Positions 4,138 through 19,593 of a DNA stretch of 21,151 bases are shown here, piece by piece. Origin of the DNA: a virus. Where the stretch lies: positions 1 through 21,151 of the IMG/VR virus record IMGVR_UViG_3300037264_002712; one strand, written 5' to 3'. Position 1 is the stretch's first letter. Each line of letters begins with the position of its first letter. The position numbers were made by a program, and so were the translations under genes. A model generated the notes under the pieces. That model saw only the letters and a program-made list of their open reading frames with translations. It searched no databases and was not told the DNA's origin.

Positions 4138-6189
4138 TTATCTCACTATCTTAAAGATGTCACCTTTATCAAAGGTAACAACCGAACCGCTCTGTTCTGT
4201 CTTAATCAAAAGCTTGAAATATCGCTCTTGTGGTAGGCCGGTGGTGTCAAGAAGGAAGAAATTCCCGTTAGCGTCACAACTCACCCGCGTATAATTATCA
4301 AAATCGATAACAATTTGGTCGGTTTCGTTATCTTTTATCGCGTAGTAAGACGAAGTTGGTAGATATTGTGGAGTGAGGTATTGAGTAAACTGTGTTCGTC
4401 GCTGAAAGTTTTTGAATGGAAACTCCGGCCGAGCAAATACATTGATTCTAATGATGTTTCCGGCTCGTGCCGTCGGCGGCAAATTTTGAATAACTGTGAC
4501 AAATGGTTGACTAAATTCCACCGAATCAAGACTTGAAGAAACCACAACAATACTGCTAGTCCAAGAATAACTGCTGGTAAAGAATGTTCCGCTGATTTGA
4601 GCATCCAAGCGTGCTCCATCGAAAATACCGGTGGTGAATATACCATTGAAACTCGCACTGGCCACGGAAGACGAAACGTTAAATGTTCCAAAAGCCGTTC
4701 CGTTAACATACAAACCAGAAACATCCACGTAAAAATTTGGATACACCGAAAACGGTAAATTGGACGTGATTCGGCTACCACTGATAAGTTGAGATGTAAT
4801 TGACCCGGACAAAATTCCCCATGTCAAATCGTAACCGTCGAGACTGGAAGTAAAATTACTACCACTGAAAAGTCCATCAATCAAAACACCTTGTAACAAA
4901 GAACCCGACCCATAAACCGTGGGTTGGTCTGAACTACTCAAAGAGCCTGAAAATTGACCAAAAATTGTAAAGTCAGCAATGGTTTCAGAGTTACCGACAA
5001 CACTAATTACTCCACTTGCAGACAAATTGGCACTCGACGAGTAGTTCGCAATTCCGACAAAGCTTCCGGTAATTGAACTTCCCACAATGGAAGCAGTGGT
5101 TATTACGCCCTGATAGCTTGCGGTAGTAGTTGAAATGGTAACGCTGCCGGTTGATACGCTGCCAGTTATCCAAGTACTGTCATCCCAACCAACATTCAAT
5201 CGTGGTTGATAAATGGTATTGGTATCTCGACTAAAGAAATACAGCGCCATGGCCGACCCGGTTGCCCGAGTTTCGTCATCTGACAAAAGAATCAAGCCTT
5301 CGTTTGGAATACTGCCACTCAACCAAGCATAAACGATGTTGGAAACATCCATATCGATGTCACCAACTTCATAATCAAACGATTGACTCGAAATTGAACT
5401 TGTGTACCACGTTCCTCCACCCCTCGCCCACAACAACGGATACAATGTTGAGTCATTCAAAAAGTCAATTGGAGTTAAACCATTTGGGTCAGTAACGGTC
5501 GCCCATACGCTGCCCGAGTAGTAATTGCGATAGTTCCAACTGGCACCAGTGGATGAACCACCATCAGAAAGATATCCATTACCCATTGCCCAACTTTGAC
5601 TAATAGGAAAAGCATATATCGAATAAGAAATCGGGAGATTTTGCTCTCTTGCGACATTCATTTGGAGAATGAATTCGGCGTCAGAAATATCCCCGCTCGC
5701 AATAGAAGCTGAAATAACATCCAAATCAAACTTTACCAAAGCACGATTGACATACTTCTTAGTACTGACAACTTGGTTCGATTGAGATATGGTATAATGG
5801 CCTGTAATCGTGCCTGTAACGGAGCCACTAAATTCTGTAATCGTGCCGTTGAAATTTCCGATGCTACCGGAGAAGTTAATTCCCGACAACATACTCGAAC
5901 CGGAAAATCCGGAGCCACTTACACTGCCTGTTCCTGAAGCAATTGTTCCTGAAATGTAAGTCGCCAAACCCAGTAACGAGCCTGATGTAACATTTCCAGT
6001 GAAGGATTGAATACATATTCCTGTTACACTAGCACTATCATACGAAAACGTCTGAGTATCTTGAGAGAAACGAGCTGTAACGTCATCTGTTCCAACTCGC
6101 AAGATTTCATCCAATCCGAAATTTACGTCATCGTAATTAATCGTATTGGTTACGAAAGTGTCTTCGGCTGGATAAATTAAGTGGTGCAT
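4138..6189 (-). CDS. DNRLRE-type adhesin-like virion structural protein
   Basis: 683 residues. The N-terminus (YPAEDTFVTNTINYDDVNFG, then EILRVG) and the later block RALVKFDLDVISAS with a QMNVAREQNLPISYSIYAF strand and a DVSNIVYAWLSG strand resemble the DNRLRE/CBM-like beta-sandwich of surface and phage proteins. Between those halves, residues about 55-131 are a Gly/Ser repeat tract with FSGS/ISGT/VTG steps like a beta-solenoid, so the domain seems split by an insertion. A second tract of the same style covers about 340-560. The C-terminal 120 residues look globular, with IRINVFARPEFPFKNFQRRT and a YFKLLIKTEQSG strand near the end. ATG is 3 nt after the J-like gene's TAA. Inference: a baseplate-attached fibre or decoration protein acting outside the particle, perhaps in surface binding. 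Confidence 0.75.
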   Translation of the reverse strand: MHHLIYPAEDTFVTNTINYDDVNFGLDEILRVGTDDVTARFSQDTQTFSYDSASVTGICIQSFTGNVTSGSLLGLATYISGTIASGTGSVSGSGFSGSSMLSGINFSGSIGNFNGTITEFSGSVTGTITGHYTISQSNQVVSTKKYVNRALVKFDLDVISASIASGDISDAEFILQMNVAREQNLPISYSIYAFPISQSWAMGNGYLSDGGSSTGASWNYRNYYSGSVWATVTDPNGLTPIDFLNDSTLYPLLWARGGGTWYTSSISSQSFDYEVGDIDMDVSNIVYAWLSGSIPNEGLILLSDDETRATGSAMALYFFSRDTNTIYQPRLNVGWDDSTWITGSVSTGSVTISTTTASYQGVITTASIVGSSITGSFVGIANYSSSANLSASGVISVVGNSETIADFTIFGQFSGSLSSSDQPTVYGSGSLLQGVLIDGLFSGSNFTSSLDGYDLTWGILSGSITSQLISGSRITSNLPFSVYPNFYVDVSGLYVNGTAFGTFNVSSSVASASFNGIFTTGIFDGARLDAQISGTFFTSSYSWTSSIVVVSSSLDSVEFSQPFVTVIQNLPPTARAGNIIRINVFARPEFPFKNFQRRTQFTQYLTPQYLPTSSYYAIKDNETDQIVIDFDNYTRVSCDANGNFFLLDTTGLPQERYFKLLIKTEQSGSVVTFDKGDIFKIVR

Positions 6190-13116: not shown

Positions 13117-14124
13117 TTATCGCTTGAAATATTGATTAAAAAAAGTATTCTTGGTTTTCTCCGGTTCTTCCACAGGTGGGAGAATTGGAACTGAATTGAC
13201 TGGTGATTCTGTATTTGGCAACACAATGGGCACAATGGGTTCAGGTACAGAAGACGTTTCAGCATCCGTTAGAAGTGTTTTAGTATCAGATGGTTGGATG
13301 GGTTTATTGTCATATACACGTTCGTCTTCCTTACGATAAACCGCGACGTTGTAAGCTAGGATAAGACAAATCGCCAATGGGTCAAATACGAAAATGATTG
13401 ATATAATAAACCACCTTGCCACGGTATCAAGTGATAGTCCCAAAGCATCGGCCACGAATTTGAACGTCTGTATGTCTTTTTTCTCGGCAGACCCAAGTTT
13501 CAATTGGTTGACCTGTTCATCAATCTTGCGAATGTCTTCAATGCTGGTCTGTATCTTATCGTTCTGTTCCTTCATATCCTTGTCGGTCTGAGAAATCAAA
13601 TCCACGGTCTGTTGTTGGAGTTGTTTCAACTGAATAGGATTTCTTGATAGGAATTCGTTGGTCAACACTTCGCTCATACGAGCTTCTTGGGATGACCTAA
13701 GTTTACCCAAATCATCCGACCGTTTCTTGGCCGCAACGATTTTGTCTTGGTAAAACGCTTTCTGACTTTCCACCGTTTTGATTCGGTCTTGTGCCACCGC
13801 AAATTCAATAGATGACTTCTGATAGGCAGCAGAAAGATAACCAAAGATACCAAGGGAAGTTATGACCAGTAAAGCCAGAACGGCTATTACCAGATAGGTT
13901 TTAAGAAACCGTTGACATTTCTCCCAATAGCGGTAAAGGAATGTAGTAGCAACAAGTTTACCTATTTCCAAAGATGATGCCATGACCATTACTGAAATGG
14001 TAGCTCCAGCGAATAGGGTAGCAATACCATAGACGGAAAAGCACGCTGCACACAAGGCTATAAAGAGAGCAGTGGCACCTAAAATCCAAGGGAAACGAGA
14101 TTTGGACGGTTGTTTATCTTTCAT
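13117..14124 (-). CDS. Multi-pass membrane protein with long coiled coil, unknown function
   Basis: 335 residues. Membrane segments are at about 13-33, 34-64 (with buried-looking Glu53 and Lys56 in SSLEIGKLVATTFLYRYW), 77-98 and 238-263 (WFIISIIFVFDPLAICLILA). Between the third and last, residues about 100-215 form a long charged coiled coil (QDRIKTVESQKAFYQDKIVA, then QQQTVDLISQTDKDMKEQND). The C-terminal 70 residues are Pro-, Val- and Glu-rich and probably disordered, ending KNTFFNQYFKR. The architecture recalls DUF4407-like proteins, and I remember similar hypothetical proteins in marine T4-like phages; neither gives a function. ATG at 14124 has ATATTTAT 4 nt upstream. It lies between fibre genes and regulatory genes, away from any recognisable lysis gene. 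It is presumably inserted in the host inner membrane; a role in lysis timing, exclusion or envelope remodelling is speculation. Confidence 0.78.
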   Translation of the reverse strand: MKDKQPSKSRFPWILGATALFIALCAACFSVYGIATLFAGATISVMVMASSLEIGKLVATTFLYRYWEKCQRFLKTYLVIAVLALLVITSLGIFGYLSAAYQKSSIEFAVAQDRIKTVESQKAFYQDKIVAAKKRSDDLGKLRSSQEARMSEVLTNEFLSRNPIQLKQLQQQTVDLISQTDKDMKEQNDKIQTSIEDIRKIDEQVNQLKLGSAEKKDIQTFKFVADALGLSLDTVARWFIISIIFVFDPLAICLILAYNVAVYRKEDERVYDNKPIQPSDTKTLLTDAETSSVPEPIVPIVLPNTESPVNSVPILPPVEEPEKTKNTFFNQYFKR

Positions 14125-14157: not shown

Positions 14158-15618
14158 TTACCAATTGCCATATTCCGGCCAATTAACATAAGTAACAGTG
14201 CCACTCAAACCGGTGTGTCCACGACGAACAATGATAATACCTCGTTCATCTCCGGTGTCCGGGTCATAATCGACGGTTACTTTCTCTGTGGCTGTATCCG
14301 AATTGGGTGCTGCGTGTGCCAATGGCACAGCATATGATTTGATATACGTTATGGAAGTCGAAAGCCAACTTGATGTAATGTTTCCTGTTGTGTGTTCGAA
14401 GATGTGCATGTATCCCGAACTATCATCTATCAAATAATAACGTTGTTTAATAGGATTGAAATCCCACATCAAAGTGTCTTGTTGGTCGCCGGGGTCAGTA
14501 CCAAAATTGATGAATTTTCGGTATTCTGTATTGTCAGTACACGAATCAAGGTTTATCGTTGCCGAAGCAAAATCGTGCTGCCAACTAACATTGTAATAAT
14601 GTCGTCTCCAACGTAAATCTGGTGCGTTACCATACGTTCCAGCATTGTCACTTCCATACAAACACAAAACGCTTGGCTGAGTTAAACTATTCCAATTTGT
14701 TACTAAAACTGGCAAATCATAATAATAACCTCCAACTCCAGAAATCAATGATGGAGCAGTATTATCTGTTACATTGTAATCATACAAGCCAGTATCAAAA
14801 AATGCTAACATATGCAAATCTCCGTCTTCTTCTCGACGCATTGCACGACCGTAAAAATTCCAACCGTCTGTTGGCCATTGATGCTTATATGTCGCTTCAT
14901 TGGTTTGCATATCAATTTTTACCAAGTTTCTACGAGCGTTCGTTCGGCTATAATTGTAAACATACAAATCATTGCCTACCGCAAATGCTCCGCCGGGGTT
15001 AGCTACCCACCACGTCCCACCAATATTACTAAAGTTTTTGGTGATGATTGAATTGCTAGTCGCAATATAACTCGCGGTCAAAGCTGTTACAGCTTGACCC
15101 GCCCATGATGCCGTTTTAGCATATGAACTACTTATTAGATTGTCTGCCCAACTTGCCGAATGAGCGAATGATGATGTGGGTGGAACGCCTAATGCAAAAT
15201 TAACGTATGAGGCTGTAATAGCAACAGACGATGTACCAGCATACGAAGACGTTTTAGCAAACGAAGCAAACGAAGCCGTGCCGGCTACAGCCGAAGCCGT
15301 GATAGCTGCTCCGCTTCTATCTGCCCAACTTGACGATAATGAATTTACAGAATATGACGCGGATGTAGTATTAGGCCAAATCAGACTGTTGGCGGTTGAA
15401 GAAGAAATACTGCTTGACGCCCAACTCGATGATAATGAAATTCTGGATGAACTAGCATACGATGCAGATAACACCGAACCACTATCTGCAAACCAACCAC
15501 CAAAAGATGTTACCGTCACTCGATATGTGGTTAACGAGCTACTATCTACCAACGGAACGAAATCCTCAGCCTTTACAATAGAGAAATCGTTGAGTTGACT
15601 TATTCGGATACTTGACAT
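14158..15618 (-). CDS. Tail fibre-like protein 4, propeller-like C-terminal domain
   Basis: 486 residues. The N-terminal module (SSIRISQLNDFSIVKAEDF, then LVDSSSLTTYRVT) is of the ISQL type found at the base of many phage fibres. Residues about 48-180 are a shaft of Ser/Ala repeats in which ASYA, SSWA and ASFA recur about every 7-14 residues. From about 190 on, the sequence is unlike its neighbours: Trp/Tyr-rich blades such as NDLYVYNYSRTNARRNLVKI and QRYYLIDDSSGYMHIFEH suggest a beta-propeller-like receptor-binding head. The N-terminal 150 residues are very similar to the gene upstream (15645-16619), with one 63-bp stretch identical in DNA. ATG follows a TCATAATTT leader in a 26-nt gap. Inferred role: host-surface recognition. 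The fibre role is likely; the fold is tentative. Confidence 0.8.
   Translation of the reverse strand: MSSIRISQLNDFSIVKAEDFVPLVDSSSLTTYRVTVTSFGGWFADSGSVLSASYASSSRISLSSSWASSSISSSTANSLIWPNTTSASYSVNSLSSSWADRSGAAITASAVAGTASFASFAKTSSYAGTSSVAITASYVNFALGVPPTSSFAHSASWADNLISSSYAKTASWAGQAVTALTASYIATSNSIITKNFSNIGGTWWVANPGGAFAVGNDLYVYNYSRTNARRNLVKIDMQTNEATYKHQWPTDGWNFYGRAMRREEDGDLHMLAFFDTGLYDYNVTDNTAPSLISGVGGYYYDLPVLVTNWNSLTQPSVLCLYGSDNAGTYGNAPDLRWRRHYYNVSWQHDFASATINLDSCTDNTEYRKFINFGTDPGDQQDTLMWDFNPIKQRYYLIDDSSGYMHIFEHTTGNITSSWLSTSITYIKSYAVPLAHAAPNSDTATEKVTVDYDPDTGDERGIIIVRRGHTGLSGTVTYVNWPEYGNW
15179..15241. repeat. 63-bp perfect direct repeat, copy in fibre 4
   Basis: Identical to 16180-16242, 1,001 bp away, including all third codon positions, while the flanks differ at many synonymous sites. 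It encodes AGTSSVAITASYVNFALGVPP at the end of the shared shaft, before the C-terminal domains diverge. Confidence 0.9.
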
Positions 15619-15644
15619 AAATTATGAGTAAACTGCCATATTGG

Positions 15645-16619
15645 TTAAATTACAATAATTGTTACTGTAGGATAGTAGATTGAAGTTCCAGCGGTGTTAT
15701 GATTGTATGCGCTATAAAATGAAGTATAATTACCATCTTCAACCGTTTTGGCTGACATAGTAAATTCGGTTGTGGTTTTAGCATGTGCGGGGGAAATAGC
15801 GCAACATATATCACATGGATATGTATCACCAGAACTAACAGCCGACCCGCTTCGATGGCCTGTTCCTATCATAGTATAGTTTGTATCACTTAATGGGGTT
15901 AAAAATTTTACACCAAACTTCGTAAAAAAAGAATATCCAGCACTATTTTGTCGTATATTAGCATAAGTAACTGAAGCAATATTGTAACTTTCTACTAACG
16001 TTATGCTGTTGTAATCTGTATAATGTCCTGTCCATCTAATTTGTGCCCATGCTTTGATTATACCAACTGCCGTTTCTGGTCTAACATAACTAGCAGTGAC
16101 AGCATTGGAGGCGGAAACAGAATATGATGAACTATTAGAAAAATCTGACCACGATGATGAAATCGAATAAGAAGATGTAGGTGGAACGCCTAATGCAAAA
16201 TTAACGTATGAGGCTGTAATAGCAACAGACGATGTACCAGCAAACGATGCAGACTTGGAAAAGCCTGCGAAAGATGAAGTTCCGGCTGTCTGTGATGACG
16301 TAATTGAGTTACCGGCTCTATCTGCCCAACTAGAGGAAACTGAGTTTTGAGAGAATGAAGCCGTAGTCGTATTGGGCCAAATTAACGTTCCAGCCGTCGA
16401 TGCGGAAATACTAGCCGATGCCCAACTCGATGAGAATGAAACTCTGGATGAACTTGCGTAAGATGAAGATAACGCCGAACCGCTTGCTGCAAACCAATTT
16501 CCAAACTCCAACACGGTAACTCTATACGTGGTCAAAGAACTACTATCAACCAGCGGCATAAAATCCGAGCCGGTCACTTGCGAGAAACTACTAAGTTGAC
16601 TTATTCTAATGCTTGACAT
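15645..16619 (-). CDS. Tail fibre-like protein 3, KAW-type C-terminal tip
   Basis: 324 residues. The N-terminus (SSIRISQLSSFSQVTGSDF, then LVDSSSLTTYRVT) and the Ser/Ala shaft to about 185 closely match fibre 4. The C-terminal 135 residues begin GIIKAWAQIRWTG and contain YNIASVTY and FLTPLSDTNYTMIGTG. This is the pattern of the common fibre-tip domain that starts KAWxxF and has a PxxxxNY block (recalled from phage fibres). The same tip type ends fibre 1, so fibres 1 and 3 share tips while fibres 3 and 4 share bases. TAA-TTT-ATG joins it to fibre 2. Inferred function: trimeric receptor-binding fibre. The DNA encoding AGTSSVAITASYVNFALG is identical to that in fibre 4. Confidence 0.8.
   Translation of the reverse strand: MSSIRISQLSSFSQVTGSDFMPLVDSSSLTTYRVTVLEFGNWFAASGSALSSSYASSSRVSFSSSWASASISASTAGTLIWPNTTTASFSQNSVSSSWADRAGNSITSSQTAGTSSFAGFSKSASFAGTSSVAITASYVNFALGVPPTSSYSISSSWSDFSNSSSYSVSASNAVTASYVRPETAVGIIKAWAQIRWTGHYTDYNSITLVESYNIASVTYANIRQNSAGYSFFTKFGVKFLTPLSDTNYTMIGTGHRSGSAVSSGDTYPCDICCAISPAHAKTTTEFTMSAKTVEDGNYTSFYSAYNHNTAGTSIYYPTVTIIVI
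16180..16242. repeat. 63-bp perfect direct repeat, copy in fibre 3
   Basis: Partner of the copy at 15179-15241, at the equivalent position in the upstream paralogue and in the same frame. It marks a likely recombination or gene-conversion tract between the two fibre genes. Confidence 0.9.
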
Positions 16620-16622
16620 AAA

Positions 16623-18590
16623 TTATACAGCAGAATCGTAACCAACCGTCCACCCCAATCCTTGCAACGTGAGGATAAAATCGTTTACGGTACTTATCAT
16701 AATTGGTCCGTTACCATTCAGTAAAATTGTTCCATTTGTTAATCCTCCTGCCACAGCGTTAGAACAAATAGTATCCATTGTGCCTTGAGTTAAACTACAA
16801 CTTGTCACGTTTAAGTATAACAAAGATGCTGGTAATGTAGGGAATGTTGATAGTGACGATATATCATAAGAATCAATCCAACCAAGTGCGGCTGGGAAAG
16901 TACTTCCAATAGTCACTATTGGGTTATTAAAAATAGACATCGTTAACAAACTTTCCGGTAAAATCGGAAAGAATGATGGCAATTGATTCGTTCCCAAATA
17001 CAGATCGGTTGTTCCATACGGAATATCAGATGGAATCGTTGCAATCAAATTGTCTTCAGCGTTCAAATAAGACATGGTTTCTGGTAATCCAGAAATGGAA
17101 GTCAACAAATTATCTCCACAGTTCAAAAATGACAGTGAAATCGGAAGGGTTGGAAGAGATGTTAAACTGTTTTGACCACAATGCAAATACGTCATTCCAG
17201 TAGCATTGTCCAAAGGACTCATACTTTCAATCGAGCAACTATCGCACGACAAAGTAACAAGGGTGTCTGGCATTCCTTTCAACGAAGTGATTAAACTGTT
17301 ACGACCACAATCGAGAATTGTTAAATTTTGAAGTGACCACACATAACGAATCGAAGTTACTCCTTGATTTCTAACACTAACATCATCAATCAAGGCAGAC
17401 CCCGTTGCTAACATTTCGTTTCGGTAATTGGTGAATGGCCCCTCGTGACTTCCGGTATAGAATGTTATCGGCACCGCTTGTTCAGGAGACACCTGAAACA
17501 ATGGGGGTTCGTAAATAGACACATTTATAGTGTCACTCAAACTAGACAAATTAAACCGAGTGGTTCGGGTGGGTTCAATAGGAATTCTCCAAGATGAACC
17601 TGTAACAAATGCCGTATATTCCCCCAACATACTAGCACTTCCTTCAAGGCTAAACGGAACTTTCAAAGACCCAGACAAAAGCGTTCCAAAGGCATTCAAG
17701 GTTCGACTTACATCGTAATAAATAGGAGTCGCATCCAACGTGGTTTCATCTCCTGTATCACGACTCTTGATTTTCAAAGTTAACGTTTCATTAACGGCAA
17801 CTGACGACGTATAAGGAACGATAACTGTTCCTATTGCCCTAACATTTGTCTGTCTGGCTTGTCCAGTAGATGAAGATACTTCCACCCAATCCAGTTGAGA
17901 TGCTGAAATAGATTGTGTTGTCGATAGGAAAATTCCATAGTCGATGTAATGATTGTAAACAAAATTTTCTGCTGTTATTGCATAGGAAGCAGTGGAAATG
18001 TTTGGATACACCATTTCCAACGCCACATCAGCAAGATCCGACGTTGCAGCAAAACCAGACCGATTTGCATAAGATGCTGATGTTACTGATACATTGACAT
18101 ACGAAGCGGTATCTGCCAACTGAGCCTTAATAGCAAACGAAGCAGTCGATGTGTTTGGATATACCAATGCTGCGGCCGTTAAAGAACTCAAAGCCACGCC
18201 CGCTCTACCAGCCCAAGAAGCACTCAACGACGCGGAAGCCCACGATGCAGATGTTGTCGAACCCACCGTTGAATTCATGGCAAACGAAGCAGTAATAGCA
18301 TATGAAGAACTCAACGATGCGGAAGCCCACGATGCGGAAATGGATGCAACCGAAGCCCCGGCAAAGGACGCTGATACGACTGTTCCATGAACATTCGCTC
18401 CCAAAACATATGAAGCCGTATCCGCTTGAACCACAGTGAAACTACCACTTGCATTGAGATATGTGCCTAGTTGGTCTGCCGTTAGTTTCTTACCTTCTCT
18501 GGCACTAACATCAATCACATAAAACAAGTCACCACTTGCCACTTCAGCAGCGGTTAACTCGGTCAATTGTGATACTCTTTTATGGGCCAT
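16623..18590 (-). CDS. Tail fibre-like protein 2 with leucine-rich repeats
   Basis: 655 residues. The N-terminal module (KRVSQLTELTAAEVASGDLF, then KKLTADQLGTYLNASGSF) pairs with that of fibre 1. Residues about 55-205 are the ASYA/ASWA shaft. Residues about 210-410 are beta-rich and unassigned. Residues about 415-600 hold seven or more leucine-rich repeats of 20-21 residues in the LPxLPxSLxxLxxxxNxL style (for example TSLPTLPISLSFLNCGDN, TIPSDIPYGTTDLYLGTN). They end in a cap containing TQGTMDTICSNAV and GWTVGYDSAV. This type of repeat is known from bacterial effectors and surface proteins and binds partners on its concave face. ATG is one base after the TAA of fibre 1. Inference: a fibre whose tip recognises the host by an LRR domain. 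The repeats are clear; the binding role is inferred. Confidence 0.82.
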   Translation of the reverse strand: MAHKRVSQLTELTAAEVASGDLFYVIDVSAREGKKLTADQLGTYLNASGSFTVVQADTASYVLGANVHGTVVSASFAGASVASISASWASASLSSSYAITASFAMNSTVGSTTSASWASASLSASWAGRAGVALSSLTAAALVYPNTSTASFAIKAQLADTASYVNVSVTSASYANRSGFAATSDLADVALEMVYPNISTASYAITAENFVYNHYIDYGIFLSTTQSISASQLDWVEVSSSTGQARQTNVRAIGTVIVPYTSSVAVNETLTLKIKSRDTGDETTLDATPIYYDVSRTLNAFGTLLSGSLKVPFSLEGSASMLGEYTAFVTGSSWRIPIEPTRTTRFNLSSLSDTINVSIYEPPLFQVSPEQAVPITFYTGSHEGPFTNYRNEMLATGSALIDDVSVRNQGVTSIRYVWSLQNLTILDCGRNSLITSLKGMPDTLVTLSCDSCSIESMSPLDNATGMTYLHCGQNSLTSLPTLPISLSFLNCGDNLLTSISGLPETMSYLNAEDNLIATIPSDIPYGTTDLYLGTNQLPSFFPILPESLLTMSIFNNPIVTIGSTFPAALGWIDSYDISSLSTFPTLPASLLYLNVTSCSLTQGTMDTICSNAVAGGLTNGTILLNGNGPIMISTVNDFILTLQGLGWTVGYDSAV

Positions 18591-18591
18591 A

Positions 18592-19593
18592 TTATCCTAA
18601 AACTGTAAATGTAACGTATGATTGGTCGGTTGTTGGAAATGAACCAGAACTTCCCGCAAACCAATTTGCGACTGAACTCACACCCAAGTTAATTGCTATT
18701 GACATCGTACAAGTGGTAACGCTTCGATTACTATACACCGGATGAAAAACTACATCGGCAACTTCTGGTTTCAAATAAGCGGAAAATGCTTGACCAATCA
18801 ATGTATAGTTGGTTGATGGCAAAGGTTGGTTAAATATGATTCCGTAATTTATCCATGTATAATCTCCAGAATAATTCCATGTTCCATTAGAACTGTTAAC
18901 AAATTCCACGGACGTAATGTTGTTTTGTAAATAAAGTTGTGGTTGACTATACAATGCTCCAAAACTCCATGTTACCATCGCCCACGCTTTTACCGGATTG
19001 TTAAAATTTGACGCATAACTTGCTGAAATAGTAGAAAGAGATGCGTCTGAGAAACTAGAAGAAACGGTAAACGACGCGGAACGTGCAAACGACGCGGAAT
19101 GAGCGAACGACGATGTGATTGCAAACGACGATGAATGAGTAGATGAACCGGAAATTGCAAATGAAGCTGTTCCATTCGGAGTTCCAAGATAGAGTAGATT
19201 CGACGCGTTAACAGCATTCTGAGCTACTCCCGCATAGGAAGCAGAATCCGCTAAATGGGATTTGTCAGCAAATGAAGATGACACTGCCACCACAATGGAT
19301 GAACTGAAATAACTCGCGGTATCCGCATTGTTGGCTCGTAAAGCATGACTTCCAGAAATCGTTCTACTTGAAAAACTGGCCGATGTTGTAGAAAGAGCAT
19401 ATGTCGCATAAGAAGCCGAATCCACCAAGGTTGGGTCAATGAAACTGCCGCTCGCCACCACATATACGAGAAGCTGGTCAGCCGTCATCTTTTTTGACTC
19501 GTAGGCGCTGACATCTCCAACTAAAAACAAGTCACTCGGCGCAATTTCAGCGGCGGTCAAACTTGTCATTTGGGATACTTTTTCGTTTGGCAT
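18592..19593 (-). CDS. Tail fibre-like protein 1, KAW-type C-terminal tip
   Basis: 333 residues. The N-terminal module (EKVSQMTSLTAAEIAPSDLF, then KKMTADQLLVYVVASGSF) is close to that of fibre 2 and more distant from fibres 3 and 4. Residues about 55-200 are Ser/Ala shaft repeats (SSFAITSSFAHSASFARSAS and similar). The C-terminal 130 residues start with VKAWAMVTWSFG and include NNITSVEF, NYGIIFNQPLPSTNYTLIGQ and a final YVTFTVLG strand, the widespread KAW-type tip also seen in fibre 3. It is the first of four fibre genes, 28 nt after the PhoH-like gene, and its TAA is one base from the next ATG. It probably forms a trimeric tail fibre for surface binding; the site of attachment to the particle is not shown by the sequence. 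Confidence 0.8.
   Translation of the reverse strand: MPNEKVSQMTSLTAAEIAPSDLFLVGDVSAYESKKMTADQLLVYVVASGSFIDPTLVDSASYATYALSTTSASFSSRTISGSHALRANNADTASYFSSSIVVAVSSSFADKSHLADSASYAGVAQNAVNASNLLYLGTPNGTASFAISGSSTHSSSFAITSSFAHSASFARSASFTVSSSFSDASLSTISASYASNFNNPVKAWAMVTWSFGALYSQPQLYLQNNITSVEFVNSSNGTWNYSGDYTWINYGIIFNQPLPSTNYTLIGQAFSAYLKPEVADVVFHPVYSNRSVTTCTMSIAINLGVSSVANWFAGSSGSFPTTDQSYVTFTVLG

Follow-up and report, generated by a model that had tools for sequence, protein, structure and literature searches.

A four-helix membrane protein with a predicted periplasmic coiled-coil hairpin in large phages and its possible part in host lysis

The window analysed here is a stretch of 21,151 nucleotides (nt) of viral DNA, positions 1 to 21,151 of IMG/VR virus record IMGVR_UViG_3300037264_002712, and the gene in question lies on its minus strand (Table 1). 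Its product may be an envelope protein of the inner membrane that uses its hairpin to aid host lysis, a tentative reading to which we give somewhat less than an even chance. A four-helix base, held by a buried polar cluster of Glu, Lys, Thr, Ser and Asp, would carry a coiled-coil hairpin of about 8 nm in the periplasm and a disordered tail in the cytoplasm. The hairpin would bind or position lysis machinery between the inner membrane and the peptidoglycan, that is, an endolysin, a holin or, where present, an outer-membrane lipoprotein partner, and the most likely job would be helping to open the host envelope at the end of infection. We infer the periplasmic hairpin in vivo, the late timing, the lysis role in the phage of the window and any binding partner; the lysis reading draws on the predicted fold, charge statistics, conservation and lysis-gene adjacency in other lineages.

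An earlier reading of the letters of the window (the original prediction) had placed an open reading frame (ORF) here, and its exact position, strand and ATG start were confirmed. Against L002, a relative on a 279-kilobase (kb) IMG/VR contig (L numbers are our handles for loci), the protein showed 82% identity and a ratio of nonsynonymous to synonymous substitution rates (dN/dS) of 0.126 overall and about 0.05-0.09 across membrane core and coil, with about 0.06 in transmembrane helices (TM) 1-3 and 0.09 in the coil. Identity was 49% in the tail and about 90% in the core and coil. Judged by these comparisons, the ORF of 335 amino acids (aa) is a real gene under constraint.

The AlphaFold2 model of the protein, made with a 92-row alignment of natural relatives, had a mean predicted local distance difference test score (pLDDT) of 85.2 and a predicted template modelling score of 0.66. 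It contains the three N-terminal membrane stretches, the fourth helix with its Asp-Pro motif and the disordered Pro-rich tail that had been read from the sequence, and the hydropathy profile also displays the membrane stretches. A coiled coil of about 115 residues had been expected as well. The model corrects this: the region, of about 113 residues, consists of two antiparallel arms, about 101-155 and 163-213, and arm 1 runs on without break from TM3. By arithmetic, arms of about 50 residues each at 0.15 nm per residue give the hairpin length stated above. The hairpin of the window protein has no Cys. Averaged over ten residues, pLDDT is 45 to 60 in the tail, which starts at about residue 271; 11 Pro fall within the last 72 residues, and the disordered tail includes a short C-terminal helix (327-334).

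The orientation was read from charges in the 318-member family. On average a member has 2.86 Lys/Arg between TM2 and TM3 but 0.46 between TM1 and TM2, and the first 15 residues past TM4 contain 3.55 Lys/Arg and 2.19 Asp/Glu (family means). Under the positive-inside rule this charge pattern suggests that both the N and C termini are cytoplasmic and that the hairpin is periplasmic.

Conservation was counted over 318 non-redundant members, with the rows covering a position as denominator. Ser30 and Gly33, both near the periplasmic end of TM1, are kept in 310/310 rows, and Phe38, just past TM1, is conserved across relatives. In TM2, Lys56 is kept in 314/314 rows and Glu53 in 98.1%, with Asp in the remaining rows. 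TM3 holds Thr89 (316/316), Gly92 (316/316), Gly95 (317/317) and Ser90 (99.7%); TM4 holds Asp248-Pro249 and Ala251 (313/313), with Asn259 in 88.5%. As these figures are inflated where the search patterns used for collection contained the motif itself, we also counted loci collected by scans without the motif concerned: Glu53 and Lys56 were present in 62/62 each, Thr89-Ser90 in 63/63 and Asp248-Pro249 in 63/63. The Glu and Lys that had looked conserved in the window alone are thus conserved in motif-independent loci. Lengths vary more freely. Between positions 100 and 236 a member may have as few as 101 or as many as 510 residues, with a median of 130; after position 259 the tail measures 9 to 510 (median 106). 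The relatives share an elbow consensus, E-x-G-P-x-x-Y-x-A, from which the window protein deviates (D-I-Q-T-F-K-F-V-A). A C-terminal aromatic motif was found in just 7/310 members and is not a family feature. In these alignments the conserved surfaces are the membrane base and the periplasmic face (TM1 end, TM3 end and E-x-G-P elbow), while the spacer length is variable.

Because Lys, Thr and Asp are invariant and Glu and Ser near-invariant in mid-membrane, there is room for a proton- or voltage-sensing role. The protein might be an energy-linked sensor or ion-conducting module, in which the buried cluster of Glu53, Lys56, Thr89, Ser90 and Asp248 detects or draws on the proton motive force and passes movement on to the hairpin, whether to set the timing or to work on the envelope. 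That the charged and polar residues of mid-membrane are among the most conserved of the family is matched with this idea, and so is the gene that follows in Bdellovibrionota relatives, which encodes a membrane protein with a PilZ-like domain in the modelled member of a 12-locus cluster. However, buried polar clusters can be purely structural, as salt bridges. Among the matches listed, Pfam and NCBIfam gave no channel or transporter family above cut-off for the window protein and ten relatives, one of the ten reaching Neur_chan_memb at 7.3e-05, and Foldseek against PDB gave 0 matches at E<=0.001 for the whole model. We consider such a module unlikely.

Assistance to host lysis is suggested by the genes beside the family gene in other lineages, compared in a first set of 162 loci and a wider set of 318 non-redundant loci. 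In an offset profile that is partly circular, as its hidden Markov models (HMMs) were built from clusters picked for nearness, the family gene of the Mosig-like lineage stands after a gene for a protein with an N-terminal hydrophobic segment and Glucosaminidase (at -1 in 41 loci), and that of the flavobacterial-type lineage has a Phage_holin_4_1 holin at -1 in 26 loci, with the endolysin before the holin. The endolysin type of the flavobacterial-type lineage varies (PG_binding+Amidase_2, GH19 or phrog_33083-type), and holin and family gene recur. Five further loci have an Amidase_2-type gene directly downstream of the family gene.

Because of this circularity, the claim of lysis adjacency rests on a Pfam comparison of the genes at -1 with the genes at -6 in 149 randomly sampled loci, which treats related loci as independent. 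Counts are lower bounds from the families listed, 25 of 38 at -1 and 25 of 63 at -6. At -1 there were at least 25 Glucosaminidase, at least 13 Phage_holin_4_1 and at least one PG_binding_1 genes, in total at least 39/149 lysis genes; DUF5675, present in two of the -1 genes, was left out of this count. At -6 there was one Cell Wall Hydrolase (at least 1/149). Six HMMs of our own gave 41/149 at -1 and 2/149 at -6 in the same loci; the two (L007 and L323) were not among the Pfam families listed, so the combined -6 control is about 3/149. The gene upstream of the family gene was on the same strand in 226 of the 241 viral loci that show one, with a median gap of 7 nt.

Several results speak against a lysis role or narrow it. 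Lysis adjacency switches 26 times along a FastTree tree of 309 rows, compared with 79-94 times in 20 shuffles, so the adjacency is mostly inherited in two large lineages. Among 19 large carrier records, 13 have an endolysin match (four families searched). Four of these, namely Mosig, immuto and two records of IMG/VR, have it no farther than 3 kb from the family gene; in the remaining nine the distance exceeds 20 kb. Chromosomal copies are mostly without a lysis neighbour, and none has one in a Bdellovibrionota-rich clade of 29. In the clade of the window itself, none of the six lysis families occurs within three genes in any of 26 loci (0/26), and no lipobox gene occurs within four genes; the window gene stands between tail-fibre-like genes and a conserved module of a small TM protein and a sigma-like protein. 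The T4-type late promoter TATAAATA is not enriched, with 7/237 family genes and 136/4245 others, and the looser [CT]ATAAATA is in slight excess (16/237 vs 178/4245), like the control pattern TATTTATA (17/237 vs 204/4245). Finally, eight flavobacterial-type loci carry a separate protein with TM and coil 3-4 genes upstream, which could be the classical i-spanin. The late action on the host envelope, raised as a possibility in the original prediction, gains indirect support from the lysis genes adjacent in two large lineages and one small one, but not from the window clade or the late promoters.

Two further observations concern such neighbours. In the flavobacterial-type cassette of L293, the TM and coil protein (5407-5688), i-spanin-like by eye, is without a Pfam or PHROGs match, and a secreted thioredoxin-like protein (5698-6024, by eye) lies between it and the endolysin. 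In the Accumulibacter locus L140, an exception among the chromosomal copies, the neighbouring GH19-type gene is on the opposite strand.

T4 PseT.3/PseT.2 and lambda Rz/Rz1 are i-spanin/o-spanin pairs, and the family could in principle be a two-component spanin, a multi-TM i-spanin paired with an o-spanin lipoprotein. It shares with these pairs a coiled coil, here predicted to be periplasmic, anchored in the inner membrane and, in some relatives, an endolysin upstream and a small overlapping lipoprotein downstream. This order of endolysin, coiled-coil membrane protein and short overlapping lipoprotein is seen in part of the Mosig-like lineage, an adjacent lipoprotein gene is present in Verrucomicrobiota too, and weak matches to Rz-like PHROGs were obtained (phrog_739 in 3/10 members, best E 0.0051). 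But four TM helices are predicted and not one, the coil is a hairpin and not a free C-terminus, the hairpin has no Cys, and a lipoprotein turned up neither beside the window gene nor in the majority of the 48 glucosaminidase-lineage loci. Lambda Rz is described as a class II N-in/C-out inner-membrane protein (PMC6139136). An i-spanin has a single N-terminal TM helix and a periplasmic C-terminus; here the model gives four TM and a hairpin, and the C-terminus would be inside by charge. We do not call the family protein a spanin, because it is not of the single-TM type, because no lipoprotein partner was found for the window gene, and because the eight flavobacterial-type loci carry a separate spanin candidate. 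A spanin is in our judgement very unlikely.

The search for lipoprotein genes used home-made lipobox patterns. By inspection, 11/48 glucosaminidase-lineage loci have a short lipoprotein gene that directly adjoins the family gene at its 3' end or overlaps it there; the pattern had flagged 13 loci, of which L226 and L184 were discounted by eye, and it missed L183 and L191, which have a lipoprotein-like ORF by eye. These 3'-end ORFs are of several unlike types in an o-spanin-like slot. They were noted in Mosig-like contigs at L181, L189, L191, L196, L198, L201, L202 and L204, and also at L205, L206, L209 and L222. A lipobox inside or just downstream was detected in 12/219 family genes, two of which (L078 and L035) were discounted by eye, and in 6/684 control genes of similar size. 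By offset, lipobox genes are at +1 in 13/304 loci, and no other offset has them in more than 3%. Neither a convincing o-spanin gene embedded in the family gene nor a lipoprotein gene next to that of the window was found.

Bacterial clades offer further candidate partners. In the Verrucomicrobiota clade a long lipoprotein gene is directly downstream in 7/12 genome rows. Members of this clade at L107, L110, L113, L115, L127, L147 and L159 are much longer (e.g. 870 and 1107 aa); they have an additional hydrophobic stretch and a C-terminal domain, and the long lipoprotein gene is downstream. In 12 Bdellovibrionota loci the family gene is followed, in an operon-like arrangement, by a gene from a single cluster (L101, L114, L117, L123, L126, L129, L131, L132, L137, L141 and L143, with L111 truncated). 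The modelled member, L141, has membrane helices and a C-terminal domain with a PilZ-like fold (AlphaFold2 pLDDT 75, Foldseek); its PilZ matches had a best E of about 2e-3 to 5e-3 at probability 1.00, none under 1e-3. Four cluster members that were scanned, L126 included, gave no Pfam match (to E 0.1). The neighbours of the family gene therefore differ among lineages, and several are envelope proteins.

A bolder proposal, which we regard as unlikely, would cover phages and bacteria together. The family would be a very widespread, hitherto undescribed envelope module of large phages and diderm bacteria, whose proton- or voltage-sensitive Glu/Lys/Asp base drives the hairpin to switch peptidoglycan hydrolases or a lipoprotein. 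In phages it would be a fourth lysis component beside holin, endolysin and spanin, and in bacteria it would be coupled to a PilZ-type regulator or a lipoprotein.

Searches for known families gave no Pfam family above cut-off for the window protein (matches listed to E-value 10). For ten relatives, the best of the families listed were Neur_chan_memb, mentioned above, and Tetraspanin (0.00067, three relatives). In PHROGs the window protein matched phrog_5105 (annotated 'unknown function') at 0.00076 over residues 126-212, and phrog_739 (Rz-like spanin) at E=0.029 over residues 76-148, a score that coiled coils can reach. NCBIfam gave weak matches such as HpsJ (0.0046). All these matches run through the coil or TM3 plus coil, and as sequence matches none is convincing over the membrane core. 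Pfam and PHROGs gave no holin family for the window protein; among ten relatives, a single one matches phrog_20 (holin), with a non-significant E=0.064. Family searches, model and charge statistics thus agree with the original prediction that this is no standard holin, antiholin or spanin, the spanin-like matches being weak and through the coil. A clear match to a characterised lysis or transporter family, which that prediction had named as its refutation, did not appear above cut-off.

Structure-based searches gave a similar picture. Against PDB sequences the profile matched coiled coils only, and residues 1-93 matched nothing. The VIA-align matches are to coiled coils, chiefly across residues 61-260, and reach a Z of 12.3; for long helices, Z below about 13 may reflect common arrangements. 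Eight phage proteins in BFVD were matched at E<=0.001; of these, five carry just the label 'Uncharacterized protein' and the others no name at all.

Kinship with DUF4407 (PF14362), which the original prediction had suggested checking, was rejected: a profile comparison with 33 DUF4407 sequences gave 15.9% probability, compared with 36.0% for the reversed control, and two other comparisons were weak (27.9% over 13 columns, and 0.9%). DUF4407 was absent from the Pfam matches of the window protein and from the 25 of 41 families listed for ten members. By eye the layout is alike, with three N-terminal TM helices, a long coiled coil, a fourth TM and a further tail; TM2 has an acid-base pair in both, and TM4 combines an acid with a Pro. 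DUF4407 differs in its own conserved motifs, Asn-x-Asp-Arg, Pro-Arg and Glu-x-x-Pro. The two share their architecture, and kinship is not detectable by these comparisons.

Tetraspanin (PF00335) was likewise rejected. It was not listed for the window protein, and L149 scored 17.9 bits against a cut-off of 32.1. The large loop of tetraspanins has a CCG motif and further disulfide cysteines. By prediction the family shares with them four TM, a large extracytoplasmic domain between TM3 and TM4, cytoplasmic termini and polar residues in the membrane, but differs in its sub-threshold scores and in having almost no large-loop cysteines (hairpin Cys mean 0.01 over 312 members). We take the likeness as convergent.

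The family was found in 13 of 50,697 phage records, the identical 13 with each of four member queries (tblastn). The carriers include isolated phages: Stenotrophomonas phages CM1 and RAS14, Xanthomonas phage XacN1, Pelagibacter phage Mosig, four Flavobacterium phage immuto records, Microcystis phage Mel-JY01 and Salicola phage SCTP-2; three uncultured genomes complete the set. These records are 141 to 735 kb in size, and those with annotation name the product 'hypothetical protein'. The hosts named for them are all diderm. The 19 large carrier records have one full copy each, with weak partial second matches in three. With the window protein as sole query, IMG/VR yielded two relatives, and four alignment-based scans gave from at least 582 to at least 591 confirmed relatives each, by which the family is common in environmental virus contigs.

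A scan of bacterial and archaeal genomes gave 70 loci. Some of them are probably binned phage contigs, for example a 76% identical contig in an archaeal metagenome-assembled genome; others are in chromosomal surroundings, as in the complete genome of Bdellovibrio sp. qaytius, and the chromosomal-looking copies belong to diderm bacteria. In the order of B. sp. qaytius, 7/59 genomes had a full match, two of which (qaytius itself and G004) were also in the 70-locus scan; four more had weak matches (E about 6e-4 to 8e-4), which are likely coil matches. One member (L162, NZ_CP072685.1, 10860-12065) is on a 128-kb Pseudoalteromonas plasmid, which may be a phage-plasmid, and is annotated 'chloride channel protein'. 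We found nothing to support this label, and it is probably a misannotation.

Chromosomal presence would suit a protective role, and inner-membrane superinfection exclusion (Sie) proteins block or divert incoming phage tail proteins or DNA. The periplasmic hairpin might do the same as an envelope guard, since an inner-membrane protein exposed to the periplasm fits such a task. PADLOC gave no match for the window protein. Its models of defence systems, PbeC and LmuB among them, matched up to 10 of 92 relatives (lowest E 1.6e-07), and we read these matches as coiled-coil similarity. Against exclusion, placement in lysis cassettes recurs, and the core is near-invariant across very different phages, though exclusion factors are expected to diversify. 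P22 SieA and like exclusion proteins are, as here, phage-encoded, of the inner membrane and able to act where DNA enters; SieA is described with three predicted TM helices and 162-164 residues (PMC10883804), against four TM and 335 aa here, and the likeness is by description. We judge exclusion rather unlikely.

In the literature searched, mostly titles and abstracts with subscription papers largely outside the scope, no description of the family was found. 'ORF242' does not occur in the main text of the XacN1 paper (PMC5852040), and in the parts covered of a jumbo-phage overview (PMC7824862) we found no mention of membrane coiled-coil proteins. The general architecture, a membrane-anchored coiled-coil envelope protein, is known; no curated family model was found for this family, although it is present in hundreds of environmental virus contigs. 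Recurrent placement in lysis cassettes of two large lineages, invariant intramembrane residues and pairing with a lipoprotein or PilZ-like protein in bacteria make a testable case that large phages lyse their hosts or remodel the envelope with the help of an as yet undescribed component.

The surroundings of the gene in its own lineage allow a further explanation, namely a membrane organiser of virion assembly or of late transcription or replication complexes, which would act through the cytoplasmic tail. The window clade has a conserved order of family gene, short acidic ORF, small TM protein, sigma-like gene and gp33-like gene, with Hsp20 upstream in 10/26 loci. The 290-aa product of the sigma-like gene is presumably a T4 gp55-like late sigma. 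Linkage to the small TM protein (18/26) and to the sigma-like gene (19/26) would suit an organiser, as would the copy of XacN1, which lies among genes annotated SSB, RecA-like, helicase and clamp loader; the gene order of RAS14 is similar but unlabelled. On the other hand, the tail is the least conserved part in identity and in length, the core on the periplasmic side is among the most conserved parts, and the linkage differs between lineages. We judge an organiser quite unlikely.

Table 1. Positions in the window of the family gene, of the parts of its product and of the neighbouring genes.
Feature	Residues	Positions	Strand	Basis or remark
Family gene, four-helix membrane protein with coiled-coil hairpin	335 aa	13117..14124 (including stop)	minus	ATG start
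TM1	11-37	14014..14094	minus	AlphaFold2 model
TM2	42-65	13930..14001	minus	AlphaFold2 model
Glu53 codon	53	13966-13968	minus	mid-membrane in TM2
Lys56 codon	56	13957-13959	minus	mid-membrane in TM2
TM3 and hairpin arm 1, one helix	72-155	13660..13911	minus	AlphaFold2 model
Hairpin arm 2, antiparallel, predicted periplasmic	163-213	13486..13638	minus	AlphaFold2 model
Juxtamembrane elbow helix	216-228	13441..13479	minus	AlphaFold2 model
TM4 helix, with Asp248-Pro249	232-272	13309..13431	minus	AlphaFold2 model
Disordered Pro-rich tail, predicted cytoplasmic, fast-evolving	273-335	13120..13308	minus	AlphaFold2 model and divergence
Acidic ORF, next downstream	57 aa	12852..13022	minus	cluster 27 in 10/26 window-clade loci; similar cluster 81 in 5 others
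Single-TM protein with FEKDDDVG motif	101 aa	12540..12845	minus	cluster within 4 genes in 18/26 window-clade loci
290-aa protein	290 aa	11658..12530	minus	cluster within 4 genes in 19/26 window-clade loci; no PHROGs match

On the other side of the family gene, four consecutive tail-fibre-like proteins are encoded on the minus strand at 14158-19593. By eye they have similar N-terminal modules, two starting with MSSIRISQL, and Ser/Ala-rich SASYA/SSSWA repeats, and modular exchange of fibre parts is likely among them. One of the four (16623-18590, minus) has a match to phrog_21719 at 1.4e-12, and a region of it (LTSLPTLPISLSFLNCGDN...) resembles leucine-rich repeats.

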